From the NCBI RefSeq assembly GCF_015694465.1, contig NZ_JADQDO010000003.1, positions 186,001 through 250,000 on the forward strand: a DNA stretch of 64,000 nucleotides, given 5' to 3'. The translations under genes and the position numbers were made by a program. The notes beneath the pieces are model-generated. The model had not been told where the DNA came from. It saw nothing but the letters and a program-made list of their open reading frames with translations, and did no database searches. Shown here piece by piece: positions 11,512 through 32,957 of the stretch (the stretch's first letter is position 1; every line of letters starts with the position of its first letter). Source of the stretch: Microvirga alba. Its GTDB lineage: Bacteria > Pseudomonadota > Alphaproteobacteria > Rhizobiales > Beijerinckiaceae.

Positions 11512-11577
11512 AACGAGGGATGTGTTCAACACATGAATGCCCGGCACAAGGCCGGGCACGACGTTGAGTGGCTGCGG

Positions 11578-13143
11578 CTACTCCGCCGCGTGCTGAGCGT
11601 GCAGGCGCGCGCCTCGGCTCATGAGCTTGTTGAGCGCACCGAGATAGGCCTGTGCGGATGCGACGAGCGTATCCGGGTCTGCCGCGCGGGAGGTCACGCT
11701 GCGGTCGTCGGCGGACAGCCGAACCGAGACTTCGGCCTGGGCGTCCGTTCCCTCGGTGACCGCGTGGACCTGATAGAGCTCCAACACGGCCTCGTGCGGC
11801 ACCAGCGCCTTGATGGCGTTGAAGGTGGCGTCCACGGGGCCGTTGCCCTCCTGCTCCTCGGTGATGACCTTGCCATCGACCTGGAGCTTCATGGTGGCGC
11901 GCTGCGGCCCGCGTGTGCCCGCGACGATGGAGAGCGAAACCAGCTTGATGCGGTCATGGGCCATGGCGATGTTCTGATCGACCAGCGCCTCGATATCCTC
12001 GTCGTAGACGTGCTTCTTGCGGTCAGCGAGATCCTTGAAACGCTCGAACGCATCCTGGAACTGATTGTCCGAGAGCTTGTAGCCCAACTCGTCCAGCTTG
12101 TTGCGGAAGGCGGCGCGGCCAGAATGCTTGCCCATGACCAGGTTGGTCTTGGAGACACCGACGCTCTCCGGCGTCATGATTTCATAGGTCTGCGCATTCT
12201 TCAGCATGCCGTCCTGGTGGATTCCGCTTTCATGCGCGAAAGCGTTCCGACCCACGATGGCCTTGTTGTACTGCACCGGGAACGAGGTCGCCGCCGACGC
12301 CAGCTTCGACGCGCGCGTCAGCATCGTGGTCTCGATGCCGGTCTCGTAGGGCAGCACGTCGCCGCGGGTCTTGATCGCCATCACGACCTCTTCGAGAGCC
12401 GCGTTGCCCGCGCGCTCGCCGATGCCGTTGAGGGTGCACTCGATCTGCCGCGCACCGCCTTCCAAAGCCGCGAGCGAGTTCGCTACAGCGAGGCCGAGGT
12501 CGTTGTGGCAATGGGCGGAGAAGATCGCCTTGTCCGCGTTCGGCACGCGCTCGCGAACCGCGCGGAACATGGCGCGGTATTCGTCCGGCGTCGCATAGCC
12601 CACCGTGTCGGGCAGGTTGATCGTGGTCGCCCCCGCTTTGATGGCGGCGTCAACGCAGCGGCAAAGATATTCAATCGGGGTGCGCGTGGCGTCCATGGCG
12701 GACCATTCCACATCCTCGACGAGGTTACGGGCCTGGCCGACCGTCCTGGTGATGATCTCCAGCACCTCGTCCTCGGTCTTGCGCATCTGGTGCGCCAGAT
12801 GGATCGGCGAGGTGGAGACGAAGGTGTGGATCCGCGGCCGCACGGCATGGCGAACCGCCTCACCGGCCCGAGCGATGTCGGCCGAGATGGCACGGGCGAG
12901 ACCGGCGATGGTCGCTCTTTTCACCTGCTTGGCGATCAGCGAGACGGCTTCGAAATCGCCGTTGGAGGCAATCGGGAAACCCGCCTCGATGATGTCGACG
13001 CCCATGGTGTCGAGCAGCTCGGCCACTTCGAGCTTCTCTTCCAGGGTCATCGTCGCGCCGGGGCATTGCTCCCCGTCGCGCAAGGTGGTGTCGAAGATCA
13101 AGACGCGGTCTTTGGAAGAGCCGGCGGCGGAAGAAACGGTCAT
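11578..13143 (-). CDS. leuA: 2-isopropylmalate synthase
   Basis: First committed enzyme of leucine synthesis: acetyl-CoA plus 2-oxoisovalerate gives 2-isopropylmalate. The 521-residue protein has the HMGL-like TIM barrel beginning [17 protein letters not shown], the metal-binding [15 protein letters not shown] histidines, and the substrate motif [14 protein letters not shown], then the linker and a C-terminal LeuA dimer domain (from about residue 370) that mediates leucine feedback. Start ATG 13143 follows AAGGA. A leucine-rich leader peptide gene and a strong stem lie between its promoter and start, indicating transcription attenuation by leucyl-tRNA supply. Confidence 0.97.
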
Positions 13144-13218
13144 TCGGTTAGTCCTTCTCGGGGCGAGCGATCCAAATGCAAAGGTTGGTCCCGCTCAAGG
13201 TTGGTTCCTGTTCGCGAA

Positions 13219-13261
13219 CCCCTGAGAGCCCAGGCGACAACGCCCAGCCGACCCTCAGGGG
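13219..13261 (-). promoter_or_regulatory. leuA attenuator hairpin
   Basis: A perfect 8-bp inverted repeat, CCCCTGAG (13219-13226) and CTCAGGGG (13254-13261), overlaps the stop codon of the leucine leader peptide. In the leuA transcript it would form a GC-rich stem enclosing a second GGGCG/CGCCT pairing. No U-run follows, so termination may need Rho, or the stem may act on translation; the overlap with the leader stop is what ribosome-position control requires. Confidence 0.65.
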
Positions 13262-13350
13262 CGACTAAGGAGAAGGAGGCCAAGGAGGCGCGCGCGACCG
13301 GCCGCGGAAGCGGACGAGGTCGTCAATGCGCTGGGGGAGCCGATGAACAT
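13255..13350 (-). CDS. leuL: leuA leader peptide (leucine-rich, 31 residues)
   Basis: Between the likely promoter (13403-13431) and leuA there is a 31-codon frame starting ATG 13350, preceded by AGGAGGAATGGGAAGCG. Near its end it encodes LLGLLLLSRP, six leucines in seven codons (CTC or CTT), and its TGA lies in the first arm of the attenuator stem. Leucine starvation would stall the ribosome at the run and change RNA folding downstream. The peptide itself should have no function. Leader peptides of this kind are established for leu operons; this specific one is read directly from the sequence. Confidence 0.8.
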   Translation of the reverse strand: MFIGSPSALTTSSASAAGRARLLGLLLLSRP

Positions 13351-13402
13351 CGCTTCCCATTCCTCCTGAACATCGCGGACCATGCCACGATCGACGGACG
13401 TG

Positions 13403-13431
13403 TTTGTAAAGGTGCTTCGGTTCGATGGCAA
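13403..13431 (-). promoter_or_regulatory. Predicted sigma-70 promoter of leuA
   Basis: On the minus strand TTGCCA (13426-13431) and TACAAA (13403-13408) are separated by 17 bases. The expected start is near 13396, giving a short 5' end before the leader peptide at 13350. Confidence 0.45.
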
Positions 13432-13588
13432 GAGAATGAAACATCCGCAAAGCCAAAACTTGCCCTTGCGACAGAACCTTTCTCACCCGGCAGGCTTGGC
13501 TGTGTACCCGAATGAATTGCCACGCTGTCCCCCCACCCTAGTTGAGTGCGAAGCCCGAATGGGCACTCATTGAAGGGGAGACATTCTG

Positions 13589-13915
13589 ATGAGGACCTTA
13601 TCCGTTTCCGCATGGCTGCTCGGCGCCGTGGCCCTTCCCCTCGCCGCCTGCAACCAGACCACGTCCAATGCCGTGGTGATCACGAACATCACGCCGGCAA
13701 GCTTCCGCATGCCTGAGGGAACCGGCTGCCGGGGCGAGGCGGCCCGCTATCGCGCGGTCATGGACAACGATCTGCGCATGGGCCACGTCAATCAATCGGT
13801 CTATGTACGGGTCGACAAGGAAATCGCCCAGGCTGAGTCAGCCTGCGCCAGCGGGCGCGAAGCGGATTCCGTGCGCATGATCAACGCCACCAAGAGCCGC
13901 TACGGCTACCGCTGA
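13589..13915 (+). CDS. Small putative lipoprotein
   Basis: This 108-residue protein has an N-terminal signal ending in the lipobox LPLAAC (Cys about residue 21), so it should be lipidated and anchored in the periplasm. The remainder contains two further cysteines (GTGCRGEA and ESACASG), probably a disulfide, around a helical region with repeated RVD and NAT segments. I do not recognise a named family. Start ATG 13589 follows GGGGAGA at the right distance. Its 3' end overlaps that of the converging Nudix gene by 10 bases. Confidence 0.8.
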   Translation: MRTLSVSAWLLGAVALPLAACNQTTSNAVVITNITPASFRMPEGTGCRGEAARYRAVMDNDLRMGHVNQSVYVRVDKEIAQAESACASGREADSVRMINATKSRYGYR

Positions 13916-32514: not shown

Positions 32515-32598
32515 GAAAGGCTCCTTGCCTCATCTTACGTCAGTCGGCGGCCAGCGTCAGAGGGTGCATTTCGTCCCCCGTGAACTTGTCCCCCGCTC

Positions 32599-32627
32599 TT
32601 TCAAAATGGTTCAGTCTTTCTTATATT
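32599..32627 (+). promoter_or_regulatory. Possible ssrA promoter
   Basis: TTTCAA (32599-32604) and TATATT (32622-32627) are 17 bases apart, just upstream of the tmRNA gene. The -35 box is weak. Confidence 0.4.
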
Positions 32628-32640
32628 GCGAATGCCGGCC

Positions 32641-32925
32641 GCAAGGTCGGCTATGGCGATAAACGGCTATCGGAATAAACCCATCGGACCCGGGGGCGGT
32701 ACCCGGCGCCTCCACCAAAACCCAGGCTCAGCATGGGTTTTGGCGGGGGCGAAATAGGATCGACGAGGGCGTAAAGGGTAGACTTTCACTCGGCATGGTT
32801 CCGCCGTTATCGGGCCGATTCAATAGTTGCCAACGACAACTATGCTCCGGTTGCAGTGGCTGCGTAAGCGGTCCCTAACACCGACTCAAAGTCCTAACGG
32901 GTAGCACCGCTAGGCGGGGTCCGGA
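32641..32925 (+). ncRNA. ssrA: Two-piece (circularly permuted) tmRNA
   Basis: tmRNA rescues stalled ribosomes by acting first as tRNA-Ala and then as a message. As in other alphaproteobacteria the gene is permuted: the acceptor piece comes first and ends in CCTCCACCA at 32717, then a short spacer, then the coding piece begins GGGGGCGAAATAGGATCGAC at 32745. GGGGGCG pairs with CGCCTCC of the acceptor strand. The tag frame GCC AAC GAC ... TAA (32829-32867) encodes ANDNYAPVAVAA. CGGACCC (32685-32691) is complementary to GGGTCCG (32917-32923), supporting a helix between the pieces. The exact 5' end of the acceptor piece is uncertain by perhaps 20 bases. Confidence 0.92.
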
Positions 32926-32957
32926 GGCACCTGGCAACAGAAGCCTCCACTTTTTTT
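32923..32957 (+). terminator. ssrA terminator
   Basis: GGAGGC (32923-32928) and GCCTCC (32943-32948) form a stem followed by A, C and a run of seven T. The sspB ribosome site (AAGGG) lies 10 bases later. Confidence 0.85.

Follow-up and report, generated by a model that had tools for sequence, protein, structure and literature searches.

The leuL attenuator of enterobacteria combines a Leu-rich leader peptide before leuA with a Rho-independent terminator. In Alphaproteobacteria, leader-peptide attenuation of branched-chain amino acid genes has been described for the ilvB/ilvIH leader (PMC1273637; Caulobacter, PMC4117421), for which the sections consulted give Ile and Val codons and a Rho-independent terminator (PMC4117421). 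The LEU element, which lies before leuA in Actinobacteria, encodes a Leu leader peptide and includes a pseudoknot, and pairing between its run of Leu codons and the Shine-Dalgarno (SD) box of leuA makes up the base stem (Seliverstov et al., 2005, PMC1262725). No terminator is reported for it in the sections consulted, which state that how these leucine operons are regulated is unknown (PMC1262725). Here we analyze an element upstream of leuA, the gene for 2-isopropylmalate synthase, on a 64,000-nucleotide stretch of Microvirga alba (assembly GCF_015694465.1, contig NZ_JADQDO010000003.1, positions 186,001–250,000; hereafter the window). It consists of a short leader open reading frame (ORF) rich in Leu codons and a hairpin that contains the leader stop codon. 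Comparison with related loci makes it probable that the element controls leuA by translational attenuation that depends on leucine and is mediated by the ribosome.

Of the systems described, the LEU element is the closest we found. The likeness, judged from its published description, is one of layout: in both cases a run of Leu codons pairs with the leuA SD box, a pairing that is predicted here and was equaled by 0 of 5000 permutations in each of two locus sets. The LEU element has a pseudoknot or alternative hairpin on the base stem, whereas in the leader described here the hairpin carries the stop codon within its 5′ arm and has a conserved sequence of its own; inner structure, sequence and taxon therefore differ. 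The ilvB/ilvIH leader is a case of leader-peptide attenuation from the same taxonomic class, but the present leader has Leu codons, lacks a consistent terminator and precedes a different gene. A ribosome profiling survey of Sinorhizobium meliloti treats, in the sections consulted, trpL and a small ORF that precedes leuC, and does not speak of leuA (PMC10117765). Among the matches listed, searches of the literature gave no account of an alphaproteobacterial leuA leader (Vitreschak 2004 or Lopatovskaya 2010 may mention one), and those for leuA leaders, attenuators or motifs gave only actinobacterial accounts. With enterobacterial leuL, the leader shares a Leu-rich peptide before leuA; the terminator of leuL was not found here.

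The features of the locus are collected in Table 1. A first-pass annotation of this DNA had reported a 31-codon frame preceded by AGGAGG and encoding LLGLLLL, its stop overlapping a perfect 8-bp stem without a T-run, 75 bases before leuA, and all of these proved correct. The spacing of 11 nucleotides between AGGAGG and the leader ATG is rather long. The outer stem is formed by CCCCTGAG (13261–13254), which includes the UGA, and CTCAGGGG (13226–13219), and 75 nucleotides separate its end from the leuA ATG at 13143. Within this spacer there is a direct repeat of ACCAACCTT (13197–13205 and 13181–13189, minus strand). LeuA of the window is 94–95% identical to LeuA of three named Microvirga genomes. 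When the 920 short ORFs (10–100 amino acids) of the window were screened for at least six Leu within seven codons, a single ORF was retained, the leader.

Table 1. Coordinates of the leuA leader and associated features in the window
Feature	Position	Strand	Details and basis
Leader ORF, 31 codons + UGA, MFIGSPSALTTSSASAAGRARLLGLLLLSRP	13255..13350	minus	ATG at 13350, UGA at 13257-13255; C-terminal end LLGLLLLSRP
Leader SD, AGGAGG	13362..13367	minus	Sequence; GGAGGA in 23/24 Microvirga-group loci
Leu codon run (putative sensor), CTC CTT GGC CTC CTT CTC CTT	13267..13287	minus	4-7 Leu per 8 codons in 105/105 loci
Predicted anti-SD segment within the Leu codons, TCCTTCTC	13270..13277	minus	Exact complement of 13152-13159; native pairing exceeds permuted, 82 + 29 loci
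Conserved hairpin, stop codon within 5′ arm	13219..13261 (arms 13254-13261 and 13219-13226)	minus	57-sequence alignment
leuA SD, GAGAAGGA, predicted partner of the Leu-codon segment	13152..13159	minus	Sequence and duplex calculation
leuA, 2-isopropylmalate synthase, 521 amino acids	11578..13143	minus	NCBIfam NF002087 (866.5 bits) and TIGR00973 (692.2 bits), both above cut-off

Folding of the single sequence was unremarkable (z scores of 0.26 and −0.31); proof of the element is comparative. We assembled 111 leuA loci, 80 from one search, 30 from another and the window's own. The leader end (Leu-x-x-Pro-stop) and the hairpin were present in 110 of them, the sole exception being locus L110. Because the search expression fixed the order CTN, six bases, CCC, stop, the spacing and the Pro codon are in part imposed by the search, but the locus count is firm. 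Removal of five duplicates left 105 distinct loci, and in every one there were four to seven Leu within the eight codons up to the last Leu. In the Microvirga group, the ATG, the 31-codon length and the absence of internal stops were common to 24/24 loci, while codons 2–22 varied more than the Leu run. Synonymous changes made up 48% of pairwise single-base codon differences in this group, against 28% expected, and the leader looks to be translated and selected. The first-pass annotation had asked whether frame and stem persist in relatives although the peptide drifts; they do, while the N-terminal residues drift. Its view of the rest of the peptide as unremarkable is only partly borne out: all 105 distinct loci use CTT for the last Leu, and the peptide closes with Pro-stop (the Pro being partly imposed by the search).

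The element is not confined to close relatives. The pattern of leader end and stem was found in 232 of 297 sampled genomes of the order; a reversed-pattern control matched about 56 of the 297 (counted by hand), so part of the 232 is due to chance. Among 30 loci fetched from this search, 27 contained leuA. Of the 65 genomes in which the pattern was absent, 27 were matched by an RNA model derived from 59 sequences. From the other 38, 21 were checked for an orthologous leuA: 16 had none at an E value of 1e-100, three from one small-genome family had leuA without the motif, and two from one family had what looked by eye like a degenerate relative of the hairpin. Across the class, the model matched 76 of 289 sampled genomes, once per genome, and leuA was present in all 29 loci fetched from these (L148–L176). 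No second genomic copy was found, the next-best match to the RNA model having an E value of 1.4. The triplet at the stop position in the 29 class loci was TGA in 22, TAG in three, TAA in two and TGG in two, so the stop codon itself varies (UGA, UAG, UAA) though the stem is kept. In the two loci with TGG (L159 and L169), the stem is retained and the leader frame continues into the hairpin. In 10 distant class members (L162, L163, L166–L168, L171–L174 and L176), the run ends in CGACUUA, that is, Arg CGA followed by the invariant CUU.

Conservation of the hairpin as a paired structure was assessed in a model-fitted alignment of 57 sequences. Paired cells amounted to 95.9% (83.7% in shuffles), cells with changes on both sides numbered 91 (28.8 in shuffles) and the covariation score was 0.394 (0.172 in shuffles); none of 500 shuffles matched any of these three values. 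The signal was abolished when the hairpin partners were slid against each other. The number of pairs with double-sided changes was less distinctive, since the nine observed were reached by 65 of 500 shuffles. An unfitted alignment of 59 sequences had double-sided changes in 8 of 15 pairs. Four outer GC pairs were invariant across the 57 sequences. In a covariation scan of two alignments (A1 and A2), no crossing pair, pseudoknot or bulge partner stood out, invariant columns being blind to such a test, nor did any alternative partner for the hairpin, which the invariant outer arm could not have revealed. The standard pairs with the highest mutual information were those of the nested hairpin, and a competing partner would go unseen wherever columns are invariant.

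The annotation had rightly doubted that the release step is the classical one. What it missed is the likely step itself, pairing of the Leu-codon run with the SD region of leuA. In the window, UCCUUCUC (13277–13270) is exactly complementary to GAGAAGGA (13159–13152). Pairing, terminators and folds were examined in 82 diverse loci, with the 29 class loci as a second set for pairing. The native duplex of Leu run and SD had a mean energy of −14.25 kcal/mol, compared with −12.62 kcal/mol when partners were permuted between loci (standard deviation 0.29; 0/5000 permutations), and a control segment from the upstream leader gave no signal (2965/5000). The class loci, three of which are from the window's own family, behaved similarly (−14.54 native and −12.43 permuted; standard deviation 0.49; 0/5000). 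The covariation between Leu codons and SD extends to particular motifs: CUUCUC occurred in the leader of 9 of 12 loci with the SD sequence GAGAAGG and in 18 of 70 others (p = 0.0016). Pairing between SD and leader was predicted with a probability above 0.3 in 55 of the 82 loci.

These observations suggest how the element might work. With leucyl-tRNA plentiful, the ribosome would traverse the Leu codons, terminate at the UGA within the hairpin, and depart; the pyrimidine-rich RNA of the Leu codons would then be free to pair with the leuA SD region and shut it. With leucyl-tRNA scarce, a ribosome parked on the Leu codons would block their pairing and leave the leuA ribosome-binding site open. 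Comparison establishes the leader, the hairpin that holds its stop, their linkage to leuA and the covariation of Leu codons with the SD region; that ribosomes stall, which way the response runs and that translation is the main level of control are our inferences. In silico, blocking a ribosome-sized stretch over the Leu codons lowered the cost of opening the SD by a mean of 1.39 kcal/mol, and by more than 1 kcal/mol in 37 of 82 loci. For a block shifted upstream the mean lowering was −0.09 kcal/mol, with 14 of 82 loci above 1 kcal/mol (p = 2e-5). In the window, the opening cost fell from 10.2 to 6.3 with the Leu-codon block and was 10.9 with the shifted block. The proposal that a leucine leader peptide controls leuA is strongly supported, as far as sequence comparison goes, by preservation of the start codon, the frame length, the Leu run, the place of the stop and the stem; it is release through a terminator that lacks support.

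Several results weigh against translational attenuation. Swaps among the eight nearest relatives still favored the native duplex in 53 of 82 loci (p = 0.0017; control segment p = 0.39), which supports the pairing, but this signal is much weaker than the global one, which may partly reflect shared ancestry. Within the Microvirga group the native and swapped energies were practically the same (−14.73 and −14.76 kcal/mol, n = 24), so the group itself contributes no covariation. In 27 of 82 loci, including several from Bradyrhizobium, the SD core was predicted to pair with the leader at a mean probability of 0.3 or less. Whole-leader folds were not more stable than shuffles, and thermodynamic folds of single leaders predicted the outer pair of the hairpin with a probability above 0.5 in only 61 of 82. 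The SD is opened to a similar extent whether the ribosome sits at the stop codon or on the Leu codons, which means that control must depend on the quick departure of the terminating ribosome. Finally, masking either arm of the hairpin had little effect on SD access (p = 0.055 and 0.075); in the window it made the SD slightly less open. The model consequently does not account for the part that is most strongly conserved, and a role for the hairpin as an aid to SD closure was rejected, arm masking having no clear effect.

Classical transcription attenuation, in which the stop-containing hairpin or a later one would be a terminator whose formation is prevented by a stall at the Leu codons, uses the same leader-peptide logic and is in keeping with a stem that overlaps the stop. 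At least five T in the eight bases after the hairpin were found in only 3 of 82 loci, however, and terminator-like sites up to leuA +40 in 4 of 82. The latter is a slight excess over shuffles (1.4, standard deviation 1.2), but 78 of 82 loci have no such site, and in the window region the terminator scan gave a single site, on the opposite strand. The alternative hairpin partner that such a switch would use did not stand out in the covariation scan, to which the invariant outer arm is uninformative. With neither a T-run nor a consistent terminator-like site, an intrinsic terminator was rejected as the general mechanism, and we regard transcription attenuation as improbable. Rho-dependent attenuation would need no T-run: release of the ribosome at the UGA would bare a Rho site in the spacer, and an upstream stall would alter its exposure. 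A spacer variable in length (54–124 nucleotides) and sequence is compatible with this. The scheme does not predict covariation between Leu run and SD, though, and a ribosome stalled upstream would leave the spacer bare too; we consider it very unlikely.

The invariance of parts of the element raises the further alternative that the hairpin binds a protein or the ribosome, for example as a brake on a ribosome at the last Leu codon, with SD pairing secondary. The four constant GC pairs, the small effect of hairpin masking on the SD and the position of the invariant CTT, five nucleotides before the stem in the 59-sequence alignment, all speak for it; the fixed spacing is partly a product of the search pattern and the model, and the Leu-run/SD covariation would be left unexplained. 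As a replacement for translational attenuation, it too seems quite unlikely. The CTT codon has properties of its own. In 81 of the 82 diverse loci the next base is A. Among the remaining Leu codons of the leader, the rare CTT has a share of 40%, compared with 2% in the leuA genes that follow these leaders and 14% in 31 long window ORFs; this enrichment counts in favor of translational attenuation. A programmed frameshift at CUU-A was rejected, since the +1 frame reached leuA without a stop in 43 of 82 loci (43.7 expected) and the −1 frame in 41 (42.3 expected). We suggest that the hairpin may slow the ribosome at the last CTT codon.

In one family of the order, the element precedes a different protein. 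At seven loci (L182, L183, L189, L190, L192, L193 and L194), the product of the downstream gene is 25–27% identical to LeuA of the window, and the two of the seven that were tested against models, from L190 and L192, are isopropylmalate synthases of the TIGR00970 type, above the model cut-off. At L189 and L193, pairing joins the part of the leader surrounding the invariant CUUAGCU to AGCUAA, immediately 5′ of the synthase gene. The complement CAGCUAAG is also visible at L182, L183 and L190, where the best-scoring duplex uses a part of the leader further upstream. Because it stands before a non-orthologous synthase, the element seems tied to function rather than to one gene family, which suggests selection on control rather than on a single enzyme gene.

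A more far-reaching reading combines these points into a widespread and so far undescribed alphaproteobacterial leucine riboregulator. The GC-clamped hairpin five nucleotides past the invariant CUU would brake the ribosome and make that codon the leucine sensor, the Leu codons would also serve as anti-SD, and the module would move between, or outlive, non-orthologous isopropylmalate synthases. We put this forward tentatively and think it doubtful as a whole. If translational attenuation is correct, leuA in many Alphaproteobacteria, the named loci including nitrogen fixers, methylotrophs and phototrophs, is controlled by one small RNA/peptide module through translation instead of a terminator, and the sensing codons double as a lock on the leuA ribosome-binding site, a layout that had been proposed from sequence in Actinobacteria in 2005 (PMC1262725). 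The leader would then serve as a reporter of leucine starvation and as a testable case of amino-acid-dependent translational attenuation.

A scan of the whole window with Rfam gave only two transfer-messenger RNA (tmRNA) models and a transfer RNA at threshold, none at the leader. With E values up to 5 allowed at 13100–13620, there was one sub-threshold match (13479–13584), outside the leader. An alphaproteobacterial tmRNA gene lies at 32595–32951 on the plus strand (RF01849, 317.6 bits). A 660-amino-acid open frame (11533–13515, plus strand) runs antisense to the whole of leuA and the leader; it is most likely a by-product of high G+C codon use and no gene.
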